Origin: Roseovarius autotrophicus
GTDB taxonomy: Bacteria; Pseudomonadota; Alphaproteobacteria; Rhodobacterales; Rhodobacteraceae
NCBI RefSeq assembly: GCF_018069895.1
Contig: NZ_JAGQDH010000001.1
Coordinates: 62,001-126,000, forward strand
DNA length: 64,000 nucleotides
Direction: 5' to 3'
Shown: positions 24,024 through 53,017 of the stretch, piece by piece
Layout: each line of letters begins with the position of its first letter
Position numbering within the stretch: the first letter of the stretch is position 1
Position numbers and translations under genes: made by a program
Notes under the pieces: generated by a model
The model's input: only the letters and a program-made list of their open reading frames with translations
What the model was told of the DNA's origin: nothing
Databases searched by the model: none

Positions 24024-24084
24024 TTCTTCTGGCTTCAAATATCCCGGGGGAATCGCCGCTTGCGGCGATGGGGGCAGCGCCCCC
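24024..24084 (+). repeat. Dispersed 61-bp double-hairpin repeat, copy 1
   Basis: The element starts TTCTTCTGGC, contains AAATATCCCGGGGGA, then an 18-base hairpin ATCGCCGC-TT-GCGGCGAT and a second hairpin GGGGGC-AGC-GCCCCC. The copy at 49226-49286 has the same length and frame of conserved blocks, but its first hairpin has a different, still self-complementary, sequence. Both copies follow a stop codon closely on the same strand. It may act as a transcript-end structure or be a small REP-like element. Confidence 0.75.
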
Positions 24085-35150: not shown

Positions 35151-35765
35151 TCAATCGTCCTTGCCCTGTGGCAAAGTGAGCAAGAGCATGTCTGGTCCGA
35201 GTGTGACAGAGATCGGGCAGTCGTGCCCGGCAAGCGCGCGGGACAGCAGCGCAAACTCGATCCGGCGCGGGTCTGGCGCCGGCGGTGGCGCGCGGCCCGC
35301 GAGCCCGTCCCAGAGCGCGGGATCGGTGGCGATCTGGCCCGTCGCGGCAAGCCTGAGCAGCGGTCCCTCTCGCGCCACCCGCAGCGTGCCGCCGCGCGGC
35401 AGGGCGTGGAGCGCGCAGAGCAGCGCGAGCGCAAGCTGTTGCGCCGCAACGCGGGTCAGAGCGCCCTCAACCGCCCAGTCGAGCGCGAGACGCGGGCGCG
35501 TGGCGATATGGGCGCCAAGCAGGGCGTGCAGGCGCGCGCCGTCGCACGTCTCTCCCGCGCCCGCGTGCCCGAAGGCAAGCCGCATGAACTCGAGCATGGC
35601 GCATGCCCCCTCGACACTCTCGCGCATGAGCGTCATTTCCGGTGTCGGCTTGCCGGCCAGGTCCATCAGGTCAAGCCCGGCCATGAGCGCACCAAGAGGG
35701 CTTGCGAGATCATGACAGATGCGCGAGCCTAGGAGGGGCGCGAGAGCGTGACTATCTTCGGGCAT
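35151..35765 (-). CDS. chpT: ChpT-like histidine phosphotransferase
   Basis: A 204-residue protein that passes phosphate from the hybrid kinase CckA to CtrA and CpdR in alphaproteobacteria. The phospho-acceptor is His18 in SRICHDLASPLGAL, in a dimerising helix pair, followed by a degenerate kinase-like ATPase fold without ATP motifs. In Rhodobacter capsulatus and relatives, ChpT and CtrA control motility, recombination and gene transfer agent release. Two CtrA-like boxes and a holin/muramidase pair occur elsewhere in the window. Confidence 0.85.
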   Translation of the reverse strand: MPEDSHALAPLLGSRICHDLASPLGALMAGLDLMDLAGKPTPEMTLMRESVEGACAMLEFMRLAFGHAGAGETCDGARLHALLGAHIATRPRLALDWAVEGALTRVAAQQLALALLCALHALPRGGTLRVAREGPLLRLAATGQIATDPALWDGLAGRAPPPAPDPRRIEFALLSRALAGHDCPISVTLGPDMLLLTLPQGKDD

Positions 35766-47726: not shown

Positions 47727-48755
47727 ATGACCCATAAAATCGCCATTCTCGGGGCCTCCGGCTATACCGGAGCCGAGCTTGCCCGCCTCATTGCCACCCA
47801 TCCATCGCTGGACATCGTGGCGCTGGCCGCCAATTCCAAGGCAGGTCAATCCATGGGGCAGGTGTTCCCGCATCTGCGCCATCTCGACCTGCCCGATCTG
47901 GTGACGATCGAAGATATTGATTTCTCGGGCATTGATCTGTGTTTCTGCGCCCTGCCGCACAAGACCAGCCAGGAGGTGATCGCGCGCCTGCCGCGCGATC
48001 TGCGCATCGTGGACCTGTCCGCCGATTTCCGCCTGCGCGATCCGGGCGATTACCAGAAATGGTATGGCAACCCCCATGCCGCGCCCGAGTTGCAGAAAGA
48101 GGCGGTCTATGGGTTGACCGAGTTCTACCGCGCCGAGATCGCGGGGGCGCGACTGGTGGCGGGGACGGGCTGCAACGCGGCGACCGGCCAATATATCCTG
48201 CGGCCGCTGATTGCGGCGGGGGTGATCGAACTTGACGAGATCATCCTTGACCTGAAATGCGGCGTGTCGGGCGCCGGGCGCAGCCTGAAGGAAAACCTGC
48301 TCCATGCGGAATTGTCCGAGGGCTATCACGCCTATTCGGTGGGCGGCACGCATCGCCATCTGGGCGAGTTCGATCAGGAACTGTCGCGTGTGGCGGGTCG
48401 CAAGGTGGAAATCCAGTTCACCCCCCATCTGCTTCCGGCCAATCGCGGCATCCTTGCCACCGCCTATGTGCGGGGGGACGCGGGCCGGATCCACGACACG
48501 CTTGTTGCGGCCTATGCCGATGAGCCGTTCCTGATCACCTTGCCCATGGGCGAGACCCCGAGCACGCGCCACATTCGCGGCAGCAATTTTTGTCATATCG
48601 GCGTGGTGGCCGACCGGCGCGAGGGCCGCGCCATCGTTATCGCAGCCCTCGACAACCTGACAAAAGGCAGCAGCGGGCAGGCGTTGCAAAACGCCAATCT
48701 GATGTTATCTGAACCAGAGGTGACGGGGCTGATGCTCGCACCCGTCTTTCCCTGA
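47727..48755 (+). CDS. argC: N-acetyl-gamma-glutamyl-phosphate reductase
   Basis: A 342-residue NADP-dependent enzyme of arginine synthesis. The NADP motif is [15 protein letters not shown], the active-site Cys is in [12 protein letters not shown], and [12 protein letters not shown] and [12 protein letters not shown] are conserved. This is the long form without fusion. It ends 18 bases before ccmE. The window also holds arginine breakdown genes at 58-60.6 kb, so synthesis and catabolism are encoded about 10 kb apart. Confidence 0.94.
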
Positions 48756-48773: not shown

Positions 48774-49220
48774 ATGAAAACTCTCAAGAAAAAACGCCGC
48801 GTTCAGATCATCGCCATCGCCGCCATTGCGCTCATCTCGGCGACCGCGCTGATCGGCTACGGAATGCGCGACGGGATCAACTTCTTCCGCTCGCCCTCGC
48901 AGATCATGGCAGAGCCGCCCGCACCCACCGAGGTGTTCCGTATCGGCGGGCTGGTCGAGACGGGCAGCATTGTGCGCGGGCAGGGCGAGGAGGTGCGCTT
49001 CATGGTGACCGATGGCGGGGCTTCGGTGCCGGTCGTGTATCGCGGCATCCTGCCTGATCTCTTCTCCGAGAACGAGGGGATGGTCGGCACCGGCAGCTAC
49101 CGCGACGGGGTGTTCGTCGCCACCGAAATCCTTGCCAAGCATGACGAGACCTACATGCCCCGCGAGGTCATCGACGCGCTCAAGGAACAGGGCGTCTATC
49201 AGGACCCCAAGGACAGCTGA
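48774..49220 (+). CDS. ccmE: Cytochrome c maturation protein CcmE
   Basis: A 148-residue periplasmic haem chaperone anchored by one N-terminal helix (IIAIAAIALISATALIGYG). Haem binds covalently to His123 in AKHDETYMP. FRIGGLVETGSI and VYRGILPDLF are family motifs. ATG 48774 is chosen over an in-frame codon 15 bases upstream, with GAGG before it. The double-hairpin repeat begins five bases after its stop, then come the muramidase and holin genes before ccmF. Confidence 0.94.
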   Translation: MKTLKKKRRVQIIAIAAIALISATALIGYGMRDGINFFRSPSQIMAEPPAPTEVFRIGGLVETGSIVRGQGEEVRFMVTDGGASVPVVYRGILPDLFSENEGMVGTGSYRDGVFVATEILAKHDETYMPREVIDALKEQGVYQDPKDS

Positions 49221-49225
49221 GCGGT

Positions 49226-49286
49226 TTCTTCTGGCCTGAAATATCCCGGGGGAGTCGCGCGGATGCGCGACGGGGGCAGCGCCCCC
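49226..49286 (+). repeat. Dispersed 61-bp double-hairpin repeat, copy 2
   Basis: Same layout as 24024-24084: TTCTTCTGGC, AAATATCCCGGGGGA, an 18-base hairpin and then GGGGGC-AGC-GCCCCC. The first hairpin here is GTCGCGC-GGAT-GCGCGAC, different in sequence from copy 1 but equally self-complementary, showing that pairing is what is kept. It follows ccmE on the same strand. Confidence 0.75.
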
Positions 49287-49369
49287 GCCCTGCACCGCGC
49301 GCCCCGCACAGGCGACGTTAATAATCGCATCGCCACACTTGCCACGGCACAAGGCAAGAGGTGGAGCAG

Positions 49370-49978
49370 ATGCGCAGCGTCCGGCAGCTGGCCGAGGACA
49401 TCGTCGCCCGCGAGGGCGGTTTCGTGGACGATCCCGACGATCCGGGCGGGGCCACGAATTTCGGGATCACGATCCACACCATGCGCCGTCTGGGGCTTGA
49501 CCTTGACGGCAACGGAATCATCGACACTGCTGATGTTCGCGTGCTCACCCGCGCGCGCGCCGTCGATATCTTCATTGAGCAGTATTACCATCGCACCGGG
49601 ATCGCGCGCCTGCCCGAGGCGCTGCGCCCGAGCGTCTTCGACATGCAGGTGAACGCGGGCGCGAATGCGGTGCGCATCCTGCAACGACTGTTGCGCGAGA
49701 TGGGCCATGCGGTCGATGTGGACGGGGTGATCGGGCCGCAGACCGTGGCCGCCACAGAGGCCGCAGCAAACGCCGCGCCCGATCACATCGCCGACGCCTA
49801 CGGGATCGCGCGGCGCAATTATTACCTCCGCCTTGCCGATGCCCGTATCGCCAGCCGCAAGTTCGCGCGCACGCGCAGCGGGGCCAAGGGTGGCTGGATC
49901 CGGCGCGCGGAAGAGTTCATCGCGCCACGCTTTCATCTCAGCGAAGCGGAATTCAACGCAAGGGTGGCGGCATGGTAA
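49370..49978 (+). CDS. Holin-associated N-acetylmuramidase (GH108) with EF-hand-like loop
   Basis: A 202-residue murein hydrolase. The GH108 start has the catalytic Glu15 in EGGFVDDPDDPGGATNFG. Residues 44-55 (DLDGNGIIDTAD) fit a canonical 12-residue EF-hand calcium loop at every ligand position. A peptidoglycan-binding-like domain follows (LREMGHAVDVDGVIGPQTVAA, ends given). There is no signal peptide, as expected for an endolysin released by a holin. It overlaps the holin gene by seven bases. In Rhodobacter such a pair lyses cells to release gene transfer agents; that role is inferred here. ATG 49370 has GAGG seven bases upstream. Confidence 0.85.
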   Translation: MRSVRQLAEDIVAREGGFVDDPDDPGGATNFGITIHTMRRLGLDLDGNGIIDTADVRVLTRARAVDIFIEQYYHRTGIARLPEALRPSVFDMQVNAGANAVRILQRLLREMGHAVDVDGVIGPQTVAATEAAANAAPDHIADAYGIARRNYYLRLADARIASRKFARTRSGAKGGWIRRAEEFIAPRFHLSEAEFNARVAAW

Positions 49979-50544
49979 GCGATGTCCTGCGGATACTGTT
50001 TGGCGGCAGCAATATCGTGCGCGAGACGGCGGAGGTGTTCCGCGTCAACGCGGAAGCCGCCGATGCGCGCGGCGCCGAGATGCAACGCGCAGCACTCGAC
50101 CAGATGGCGGCGGAGTTCCACGTCACGGAGCGCGGGCTGTTCGACCGGATCATCGACGGGCTGAACCGTCTGCCCCGCCCGGCGATGGCGCTTGGCACGC
50201 TGGGGCTGATGGTGGCGGCGATGGTCGATCCGTTGTGGTTTGGCGAGCGCATGGCGGGCCTGGCGCTGGTGCCAGAGCCGCTGTGGTGGCTTCTGGGGGC
50301 GATCGTCAGTTTCTATTTCGGCGCTCGCCATCAGGCCAAGGGGCAGGAGTTCCAACGCTCGCTCGCAACGACGCTGGCGCGCGCGCCGCAGGTGGTCGAG
50401 ACGGTGGCGACCATGCGCGCGCTGCGTGCCGACAGCCCCGGGGCCGCCGATCCGGGCGCGAATGCGCGGGTGGTGCTCGCGGTGACAGAGCCGGAGGCGA
50501 ACCGGGCGCTGGCCGAATGGCGAGCGCAAACCGCGACAATGTGA
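49972..50544 (+). CDS. Holin family protein (3-TM type)
   Basis: A 190-residue protein with a charged N-terminal half, then hydrophobic segments ALGTLGLMVAAMVDPLWF and LWWLLGAIVSFYFGARHQAKG (ends given), matching the alphaproteobacterial holin family found beside GH108 muramidases. It would form the membrane lesion that lets the muramidase reach the cell wall. It is located between ccmE and ccmF with no other phage gene nearby. Confidence 0.82.
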   Translation: MVSDVLRILFGGSNIVRETAEVFRVNAEAADARGAEMQRAALDQMAAEFHVTERGLFDRIIDGLNRLPRPAMALGTLGLMVAAMVDPLWFGERMAGLALVPEPLWWLLGAIVSFYFGARHQAKGQEFQRSLATTLARAPQVVETVATMRALRADSPGAADPGANARVVLAVTEPEANRALAEWRAQTATM

Positions 50545-50603: not shown

Positions 50604-52568
50604 ATGATTACAGAACTCGGTCACTTCGCCCTCATCCTCGCCTGTCTTGTGGCAGTGCTTCAGGCCACCATTCCGCTGATCGGCGCGCACAAGCGATGGC
50701 CCGGCTGGATGGCGGTGGCCGAACCTGCGGCGACGGCGCAGTTCCTGCTTACGGCGGCTGCGTTTGCCGCGCTGACCTATGCCTTCGTGATCTCGGATTT
50801 CTCGGTGCGGTTGGTGGTCCTCAACAGCCATACCGACAAGCCGATGCTCTACAAGGTCACGGGCGTCTGGGGCAATCACGAAGGGTCGATGCTGCTATGG
50901 GTGCTGATCGTTGCGCTGTTCGGCGCGGCGGTGGCGTGGTTCGGCGCAAACCTGCCACCCACGCTCAAGGCGCGGGTGCTGGCGGTTCAGGCGATGGTCG
51001 GCGTGGCATTCTTTCTTTTCATCCTGCTGACCTCCAACCCGTTCTTGCGTATGGCGGTGCCGCCCTTCAACGGGCAGGATCTCAATCCGCTGTTGCAGGA
51101 TCCCGGCCTCGCCTTTCATCCACCGTTTCTATACCTGGGCTATGTGGGTCTTTCGATGACGTTCTCCTTTGCGGTGGCCGCCCTTATCGAGGGGCGCGTC
51201 GATGCCGCCTGGGGTCGCTGGGTGCGGCCCTGGACGCTGACGGCGTGGATTTTTCTGACCATCGGCATCGCGCTTGGCTCCTGGTGGGCCTATTACGAGT
51301 TGGGCTGGGGCGGGTTCTGGTTCTGGGATCCGGTGGAAAACGCCTCGTTCATGCCCTGGCTCATAGCGGCGGCGCTGTTGCACTCCGCGATCGTGGTGGA
51401 AAAGCGCGAGGCGCTGAAAAGTTGGACCATCCTGCTGGCAATCATCGCCTTCGGATTCTCGATGGTGGGGGCGTTCATCACCCGATCGGGCGTTCTGACA
51501 AGCGTTCACGCCTTCGCCACCGATCCCGAGCGAGGCGTGTTCCTGCTGGGCATTCTCGCGATCTTCATGATCGGGGCGCTTACGCTGTTCGCGGTGCGCG
51601 CAGGCGCGATGCAGGCCAAGGGCGTGTTTTCCATGGTCAGCCGCGAATCGGTGCTGGTGCTCAACAATATCCTTCTGGCGGTGTCGGCCTTCGTTGTCTT
51701 TGTCGGCACGATCTGGCCGCTGGTGGCGGAAATGGCCTTTGACCGCAAGCTGTCGGTGGGAGAGCCGTTCTTCAACGCGGCCTTCACGCCCTTCATGATC
51801 GGGCTTGGCCTGATCTTGCCGGTGGGGGCGATGCTGCCGTGGAAACGGGCAAAACTGGGGCGGATCGTGCGCCCGCTTGTGCCTGCCTTCATCCTTGCCG
51901 TGGCCATTGGCGCGCTGGCCTGGGCGGTGCAGTCCGGGCGCTCGGCGCTTGGGCCGATGGGCCTGTTCCTTGCCGCCTGGCTGGTGATGGGCGCGGGCAT
52001 TGACCTGTGGTCGCGCACCGGGCGGGGGCAGGGGCGGCTTGCCCGTCTCGCGCGCCTGCCGGGCGCCGACTGGGGCAAGGCGGTGGCCCACGCCGGTTTT
52101 GGCGTGACCATCGCGGGCGTCGCCGCGATGATGGCCTGGGAGTTGGAGGATATCCGCGTTATGCATGAGGGCGACACCGTGGATATCGCGGGCTATACGC
52201 TGCGGCTCGACACGGTGGAGGATTTGGAGGGGCCGAATTACCTCTCTACCATGGCCAATTTCACGCTGATGCGTGAGGGTCGGGTTCTGGGCACCATGCA
52301 TCCCGAGAAGCGCGTCTATCCAGTGGCGCAGATGCCCACCACGGAGGCCGCGCTGAACAATGGCTTCCTGCGCGACATCTATATTGCCGTGGGCGATCCG
52401 CAGGACGGCGGTGGCTGGGCAGTGCGCAGCTATTACAAGCCGCTGGCCAACTGGATCTGGGGTGGCTCGATCCTGATGGCGCTTGGTGGCTTCTTGTCGC
52501 TCAGTGATCGGCGGTTCCGCGTGGCTGCAGGCGCGCGCAAACTGCCGCAAGGGGTGCCCGCGGAATGA
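50604..52568 (+). CDS. ccmF: Cytochrome c haem lyase subunit CcmF
   Basis: A 654-residue integral membrane protein with about 15 helices that joins haem from CcmE to apocytochromes. The WWD signature GSWWAYYELGWGGFWFWDPVEN (ends given) and conserved membrane histidines (KVTGVWGNHEGSMLLW, AFHPPFLYLGYVG) are present. The start is ATG 50604, 60 bases after the holin stop. It overlaps ccmH by ATGA. Confidence 0.95.
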   Translation: MITELGHFALILACLVAVLQATIPLIGAHKRWPGWMAVAEPAATAQFLLTAAAFAALTYAFVISDFSVRLVVLNSHTDKPMLYKVTGVWGNHEGSMLLWVLIVALFGAAVAWFGANLPPTLKARVLAVQAMVGVAFFLFILLTSNPFLRMAVPPFNGQDLNPLLQDPGLAFHPPFLYLGYVGLSMTFSFAVAALIEGRVDAAWGRWVRPWTLTAWIFLTIGIALGSWWAYYELGWGGFWFWDPVENASFMPWLIAAALLHSAIVVEKREALKSWTILLAIIAFGFSMVGAFITRSGVLTSVHAFATDPERGVFLLGILAIFMIGALTLFAVRAGAMQAKGVFSMVSRESVLVLNNILLAVSAFVVFVGTIWPLVAEMAFDRKLSVGEPFFNAAFTPFMIGLGLILPVGAMLPWKRAKLGRIVRPLVPAFILAVAIGALAWAVQSGRSALGPMGLFLAAWLVMGAGIDLWSRTGRGQGRLARLARLPGADWGKAVAHAGFGVTIAGVAAMMAWELEDIRVMHEGDTVDIAGYTLRLDTVEDLEGPNYLSTMANFTLMREGRVLGTMHPEKRVYPVAQMPTTEAALNNGFLRDIYIAVGDPQDGGGWAVRSYYKPLANWIWGGSILMALGGFLSLSDRRFRVAAGARKLPQGVPAE

Positions 52569-53017
52569 AACGCCTCCTTCTTGTGCTTTGCCTTCTGGCT
52601 GCGCCCGCGCTTGGGGTGCAGCCCGACGAGATCCTTGACGATCCGGTGCTGGAGGAACGGGCGCGTGACATATCATCGGGCTTGCGCTGCCTTGTCTGCC
52701 GCAACGAGAGCATCGACGATTCCAACGCCGAACTGGCGCGCGACCTGCGACTTCTGGTGCGCGAGCGTCTGGTCGCGGGCGACAGCAACGAAGAAGCGGT
52801 GTCCTATATCGTTGACCGTTACGGCGAATATGTGCTGCTGAAGCCCAAGACCACCGGCGCGAACCTGCTCTTGTGGCTTGCGGGGCCGATCATGTTCGGG
52901 GCGGGGCTGATCATGGGTGGGGTTTACCTGCGCCGCCGCGCCATCGCGCCCGAGCCAGAGACCGCGCGGCTGAGCAAGGAAGAAGAGTCGCGGCTGCGCG
53001 ACATTCTGCGGGACTGA
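52565..53017 (+). CDS. ccmH: Cytochrome c maturation protein CcmH (Ccl2 type)
   Basis: A 150-residue periplasmic thiol-disulfide protein with signal peptide (1-18), the active motif LRCLVCRNESI, and a C-terminal anchor helix (NLLLWLAGPIMFGAGLIMGGVYL, ends given). It reduces the CXXCH cysteines of apocytochrome before haem attachment. It is the last ccm gene here; ccmABCDG and ccmI are elsewhere. Confidence 0.94.
   Translation: MKRLLLVLCLLAAPALGVQPDEILDDPVLEERARDISSGLRCLVCRNESIDDSNAELARDLRLLVRERLVAGDSNEEAVSYIVDRYGEYVLLKPKTTGANLLLWLAGPIMFGAGLIMGGVYLRRRAIAPEPETARLSKEEESRLRDILRD

Follow-up and report, generated by a model that had tools for sequence, protein, structure and literature searches.

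The window, by which we mean the whole 64,000-nt stretch of DNA that was analysed (C11:62001-126000 of a genome in 83 contigs), contains two overlapping genes on one strand, encoding a GH108 N-acetylmuramidase and a PF11351 holin (Table 1). Both had been named in the initial annotation, and the open reading frames and family scores bore this out. The muramidase matched PF05838 (Glyco_hydro_108, 85 bits) and PF09374 (PG_binding_3, 81 bits), each above cut-off, the NCBIfam equivalog NF040573 "holin-associated N-acetylmuramidase" at 341 bits (cut-off 240) and PHROG 315 (endolysin), and the solved chains 7dnp and 2nr7 aligned with it. The EGG motif lay within the first 15 aligned residues at 54 of 54 loci, and its Glu is presumably the catalytic residue. 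The holin matched PF11351 ("Holin of 3TMs, for gene-transfer release") at 94 bits (cut-off 24.8; residues 14-120); a simple hydropathy scan gave two hydrophobic segments, at approximately residues 67-91 and 94-116, whereas the family is named for three. The overlap of the two genes is 7 nt in the window and 10 nt, in the form ATGGGNNTGA, in most relatives. An RcGTA-type cassette is recognised by a muramidase of the holin-associated type with a PF11351 holin directly downstream and overlapping it, and this is what the window holds.

Table 1. Features of the lysis locus, its surroundings and related loci (window positions unless a contig or locus is named)
Feature	Position	Strand	Remarks
ChpT-like histidine phosphotransferase	35151..35765	-	HPTransfase PF10090, 64.6 bits
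argC	47727..48755	+	TIGR01850; upstream
ccmE, upstream flank	48774..49220	+	PF03100, NF009731; start 48774 chosen within ORF beginning 48759
TTAA, putative CtrA half-site	49318..49321	+	52 nt upstream of muramidase ATG
GH108 N-acetylmuramidase, RcGTA-type endolysin	49370..49978	+	202 aa, EGG motif; ATG 49370, stop 49978
GTA holin, PF11351	49972..50544	+	190 aa; start overlaps muramidase stop, 7 nt
ccmF, downstream flank	50604..52568	+	PF16327, PF01578, TIGR00353; 59 nt past holin stop
ccmH	52565..53017	+	PF03918
GTA large terminase	C11:459710-461188 (L040)	-	intact; 73% identical to the terminase ahead of portal in G037
GafA-family protein (DUF6456)	C11:195495-196643		382 aa; same contig as window
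Fusion loci	L071-L074, L076-L078, L099-L105, 65 of L113-L182		many Rhodobacteraceae, some Hyphomicrobiales

Nine proteins encoded at 46.0-53.9 kb were scanned against Pfam, and the ChpT region was searched besides. The seven neighbours of the pair all belong to host families (acyltransferase, racemase, argC, ccmE, ccmF, ccmH and enoyl-CoA hydratase), with no phage structural or integration gene among them, so the earlier statement that no phage gene lies near the pair is true of these seven. That ChpT is encoded in the window was likewise confirmed by its PF10090 match. Two adjoining GC-rich inverted repeats, with no T run by eye, occupy 49254-49286 in the gap between ccmE and the muramidase gene, and the one of the form GGGGGC..GCCCCC has a second copy at 24070; these repeats might keep ccmE apart from the lysis genes. 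The upstream neighbour of this GTA lysis pair, ccmE, is listed in passages of PMC9765227 as one of 14 gene families whose codon-usage trend follows GTA genes.

We compared the pair with 50,697 phage records. The muramidase had 20 matches, none over at least 80% of its length; among the 12 of these that were listed, the top ones showed 40% identity at 60% coverage and 29% at 76%. The holin matched nothing in these phage records and no PHROG. Chromosomal relatives were closer (61-77% identity for the muramidase, 44-73% for the holin), and the pair is thus not nearer to prophage genes than to GTA lysis genes. By these sequence comparisons, it does not appear to be a recent acquisition from phage.

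We looked for PF11351 in 244 genomes sampled from the order, every one of them listed under a single family, and in 14 controls, which include Caulobacter vibrioides by name. It occurred in 234/244 genomes and 0/14 controls. It was absent from 8/217 genomes with a GTA capsid, and among the ten holin-less genomes of the 244 a muramidase match was seen in two, one of them above cut-off. For gene order, we used 83 loci: the window's own, the 30 best PF11351 matches, 23 further loci from genomes lacking the GTA capsid (capsid-less), and 29 from genomes with the terminase-megatron fusion described below. As four genomes occur twice, 79 of these are distinct. On the same strand and within the fetched stretch, ccmE lay upstream at 78/83 loci (74/79 distinct); ccmF lay within the fetched 1.5 kb downstream at 60/83 (57/79 distinct), and the muramidase spanned 194-198 aligned codons at 81/83 (77/79 distinct). 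A gene other than ccmF follows the pair at L002, L023 and L026, and at loci where ccmF is elsewhere the pair stays beside ccmE. Since most of the relatives examined share the order ccmE-muramidase-holin, this order is older than the present genome, and from such synteny the chromosomal place of the pair can be taken as ancestral. The pair had been described as inserted into the ccm cluster; its position between ccmE and ccmF stood, and a local insertion did not, since the order is common to most relatives examined. The related idea that a recently inserted prophage left its lysis cassette in the ccm operon could appeal to the PHROG 315 match of the muramidase, but the occupation of the same place in most relatives examined already contradicts it, and with a holin that has no PHROG or phage match we consider it extremely improbable. 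At least 16 genomes, chosen by eye, have the lysis locus on the same contig and strand as the GTA capsid, approximately 68-152 kb from it; in other genomes with both on one contig the two are far apart. Among the papers listed by our literature searches we saw none that gives the ccmE-ccmF place of the lysis pair; Hynes et al. 2016 may do so.

The same genome carries an RcGTA-type cluster at C11:139.2-151.5 kb with portal, protease, capsid, connector and tail genes and the megatron, starting ~27 kb downstream of the lysis pair on the same strand. Against solved RcGTA chains, its portal, capsid and megatron proteins scored 623, 608 and 1605 bits. The large terminase gene lies apart from the other cluster genes (C11:139208 onward, L034), on the same contig but ~320 kb away and on the opposite strand. 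By eye, aroG-like and H-NS-like genes stand before the portal gene where the terminase would be. The cluster seems to have been split by rearrangement, perhaps leaving the structural genes without their promoter, and with the large terminase 320 kb away it is not certain that this strain produces GTAs. The GTA structural genes and the GafA gene that had been expected elsewhere in the genome were thus both located, the latter as a DUF6456 protein, a family membership that does not by itself prove GafA function. Two mutually related prophage-like contigs (C23 and C19; L036, L037) also carry GTA-like tail genes, with peptidase M15 genes near them, and full megatron copies ~42% identical to the GTA megatron. 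GTA_TIM (PF13547) occurs in prophages too and was therefore discarded as an indicator that a GTA is present; this genome has 3 copies, 2 of them in the prophage-like contigs.

Upstream of the muramidase gene lies a putative CtrA half-site, which reads TTAATA in the window; the commoner form among the loci is TTAAC. Base shuffling predicted TTAA in 10.8 of 54 upstream regions and TTAAC in 3.2; they were present in 45 and 36, respectively. The median distance from TTAA to the ATG was 49 nt both in capsid-less loci (TTAA in 22/24, interquartile range 47-51 nt) and in the other loci (23/30, 47.5-55 nt). The CtrA site at gafA is given as TTAAC-N6-GTAAC in passages of PMC6363796, which also report that the R. 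capsulatus lysis promoter is bound by GafA and that endolysin induction requires CtrA; putative CtrA half-sites at that promoter are mentioned in part of PMC9638019. As sequence matches, then, the genome holds a GafA-family gene, ChpT and a putative TTAA half-site upstream of the pair.

Taking together the identity, order, overlap and conservation of the genes, the constant spacing of the CtrA-like half-site, and the presence of a GafA-family gene and a GTA cluster in this genome, we read the pair as very probably the lysis cassette of an RcGTA-type gene transfer agent, and the GTA-release role first proposed for it is supported. By analogy with the work on R. capsulatus, GafA would switch on the GTA cluster in a small fraction of cells. 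Phosphorylated CtrA, relayed via ChpT, and GafA would then turn on the cassette late from a promoter in the gap between ccmE and the muramidase gene. Translation of the holin is probably coupled to that of the muramidase because the gene ends overlap. The holin would open the inner membrane, after which the muramidase would cut the peptidoglycan, the cell would burst and GTA particles would leave. The position in the ccm operon could also be explained if the muramidase served cytochrome c maturation through local wall remodelling. It is this position that speaks for such a role, which we regard as very improbable: the muramidase has a holin partner and a putative CtrA half-site, the pair stays with ccmE where ccmF is elsewhere, and in R. 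capsulatus the lysis genes are co-expressed with the RcGTA cluster, according to passages of PMC4158056.

A GTA lysis cassette of this kind is known; what is noteworthy is that the conservation of the cassette and that of the GTA capsid do not go together. A search with the capsid of this genome matched 219 of the same 244 genomes, two of them weakly (G078, G110), so that 217 were counted as capsid-bearing. We attributed the missing capsid of G123 to an assembly gap, since its megatron is intact and sits on a short contig, and excluded this genome from the capsid-less set. The 26 capsid-less genomes comprised 14 with a terminase-megatron junction, 7 with other internal deletions, 1 with only most of the megatron and 4 without a megatron match. 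The holin was present in 24/26 capsid-less and 209/217 capsid-bearing genomes (Fisher p = 0.29). As the pair is kept about equally with and without the capsid, an exclusively GTA-related role finds no support in its conservation. The muramidase was uninterrupted and full-length in 23 of the 26, frameshifted in one (G079), and two had no pair; the GafA-family gene was found in 25/26, one of them partial. Pseudogenisation and loss of GTAs are known in several lineages (passages of PMC10883770).

In the terminase-megatron fusion, terminase residue 207 is joined in frame to megatron residue 674 (...LRGPQFDxAWVDE then xGCAAVDKGTNQPNKF...), and a gene of 2.5 kb replaces the GTA cluster of 14 kb. We take the region of terminase residue 207 to be its Walker B motif. 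The identical in-frame junction codon was found in 13/26 capsid-less genomes. Among the 14 with the junction place, the frame was open throughout in 11, out of frame at the join in G102, and broken elsewhere in G002 and G223; these three count against the in-frame reading. A DNA pattern that by design finds in-frame copies of this junction only gave 70 loci in genome_contigs; 65 match terminase or megatron too and 5 were chance matches. The record titles include Ruegeria, Roseovarius, Thioclava, Silicimonas, Sulfitobacter, Roseivivax, Celeribacter and Rhodobacter, and five records are titled Mesorhizobium, Aminobacter, Chelativorans or Phyllobacterium. Of the 65, 38 were open frames of full length, and 20 ran off the locus, 16 of them in agreement with a full-length open frame; the other 11 were short, broken or undecided.

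Fused alleles adjoin intact congeners in trees. The residue after the join is that of the congeneric intact megatron in g8, g22, g3, g6 and g33 and that of the megatron of the present genome in g1, and g4 does not agree. Tree placement and this residue together point to repeated fusion events or a long exchange of flanks. In g22, upstream DNA identity was 84-92% between fused and intact and 85-88% between intact alleles; in other genera the fused-intact comparisons were mixed or too few. Fused Ruegeria pairs gave dN/dS of ~0.05-0.18 where computable.

Several accounts of the fusion were rejected. One old clade does not accommodate fused alleles beside intact congeners, with 18 parsimony changes over 93 tips (66 fused), a number that is not a rate since the fused tips were mostly picked by the pattern. 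Transfer as a foreign patch was dismissed because, counting unlike pairs only, identity near the junction was no higher in 72 fused than in 22 intact alleles. For an intein at the junction, we considered the g8 megatron (L083-L086), which has an extra domain of ~150 or more residues shortly before the FTEFGC motif; this domain is in frame, bears no sign of an intein by eye and is not located at the junction. A viral carrier was discounted, as the pattern had no match in viral_contigs. The fused protein matched 194 phage records, of which 15 were listed; two of the 194 covered at least 80% of it, and in one of these two, Roseobacter phage RDJL3, the matching gene is of the usual megatron length (~4.06 kb) and is no fusion. 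Six plasmid records matched the fusion, none over 80% of the junction stretch. As to ordinary decay, the breakpoints of the seven other capsid-less genomes differ. The five readable on both sides were two in one open frame at the join, one in the same frame but broken upstream and two out of frame; in-frame joining is therefore not general. Microhomology at the fusion site amounts to a few bases by eye. In the structure that AlphaFold predicts for the fusion (mean pLDDT 74, pTM 0.50), confidence is high for the megatron C-terminal domains and moderate for the terminase part, and the junction is disordered; this is no proof of the chimera folding as one unit. The word "fusion" is absent from PMC9836097 and PMC10883770, and none of the titles listed in our literature searches concerned a terminase-megatron fusion. 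That one junction recurs across many genera, and across two orders, would mean that the chimera is selected for, that the allele is old and can be exchanged, or that deletions favour this site.

A second sample consisted of 33 genomes picked for the fusion, from 34 loci of isolates; judged by identical match positions, it shares G027, G197, G078 and G223 with the first. None of the 33 showed a capsid of the GTA type (23 without a match, 10 with weak matches, the best 44% identical). The holin was present in 29/33, one match being partial, and the muramidase was full length in 28 of these 29. The four holin-less genomes are Chelativorans, Mesorhizobium, Aminobacter and Phyllobacterium; membership in the order Hyphomicrobiales was confirmed for two of these genera, and the remaining two presumably also belong there. 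For the muramidase, dN/dS could be computed in 7 of 8 pairs inside fusion-only clades, giving 0.05-0.19, and in 6 of 7 pairs with intact GTA, giving 0.10-0.16. Both ranges are rough, as many synonymous distances were near saturation; the clades were taken from one gene tree. Holin dN/dS was higher than that of the muramidase, up to 0.46.

This retention agrees poorly with GTA loss by simple cheaters and is unexpected under such an account, because a cheater dropping GTAs should be free to drop lethal lysis genes as well. One explanation is that the pair forms a lysis module of the host with its own function, borrowed by GTAs where they are present, with GafA and CtrA triggering lysis of a subpopulation (and release of DNA, vesicles or nutrients) with or without particles. 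This is compatible with the pair being a GTA lysis cassette. The holin, the uninterrupted muramidase and the GafA-family gene in most capsid-less genomes, the holin in most of the fusion-picked sample, the low muramidase dN/dS in fusion-only clades and TTAA at the same distance in capsid-less loci all argue for it. However, GTA loss may in many cases be recent, within-clade descent of the fusion is read from one gene tree, synonymous distances are often near saturation, no phenotype is known, DUF6456 membership carries the reservation made above, and some decay is seen, in the frameshifted muramidase of G079 and in the degenerate muramidase and partial holin of L211. We hold this explanation tentatively, as plausible but on the doubtful side. 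With the same reserve, we suggest that subpopulation lysis controlled by GafA and CtrA could be a host programme needing no particles, with a GTA locus of two states in Rhodobacteraceae and lysis selected in both.

It is unlikely, in our judgement, that the pair is dead weight in GTA-less genomes, preserved by lag and by its place in the ccm operon, where stops and indels would be polar on ccmF. The place between ccmE and ccmF and the short gap to ccmF in many loci are consistent with this, but polarity would keep the frame open and not the amino acids, and dN/dS stays low. The GafA-family gene, located elsewhere, is likewise kept, as is the pair where a gene other than ccmF comes next (the three loci named above). 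An intact, constrained pair with its CtrA-like half-site, and a GafA-family gene besides, in most capsid-less genomes examined allows a direct test of whether lysis itself is selected, and natural strains without the GTA capsid can now be named, e.g. Ruegeria profundi ZGT108 and Roseovarius confluentis SAG6.

Returning to the GTA lysis cassette, its closest known counterpart is the RcGTA endolysin and holin, rcc00555 and rcc00556 (passages of PMC8601537 and PMC3423380), which according to these sources are the same two kinds of gene, also away from the structural cluster. The likeness here is one of family models. As in the RcGTA system, there are a GafA-family gene, ChpT and a putative CtrA half-site; unlike it, the terminase here is split from its cluster. 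The LypABC lysis hub of the Caulobacter crescentus GTA also bursts cells that produce a related RcGTA-type system, and in the parts of PMC13236601 describing it its authors did not find holin or endolysin homologues, whereas a holin-endolysin pair is present here. Prophage holin-endolysin cassettes likewise place a gene for a membrane protein next to one for a muramidase, and GH108-like endolysins occur in phages too. Unlike such cassettes, the present pair had no phage genes next to it in the neighbourhood scanned, keeps to a single conserved place in the chromosome and has no close phage relatives.
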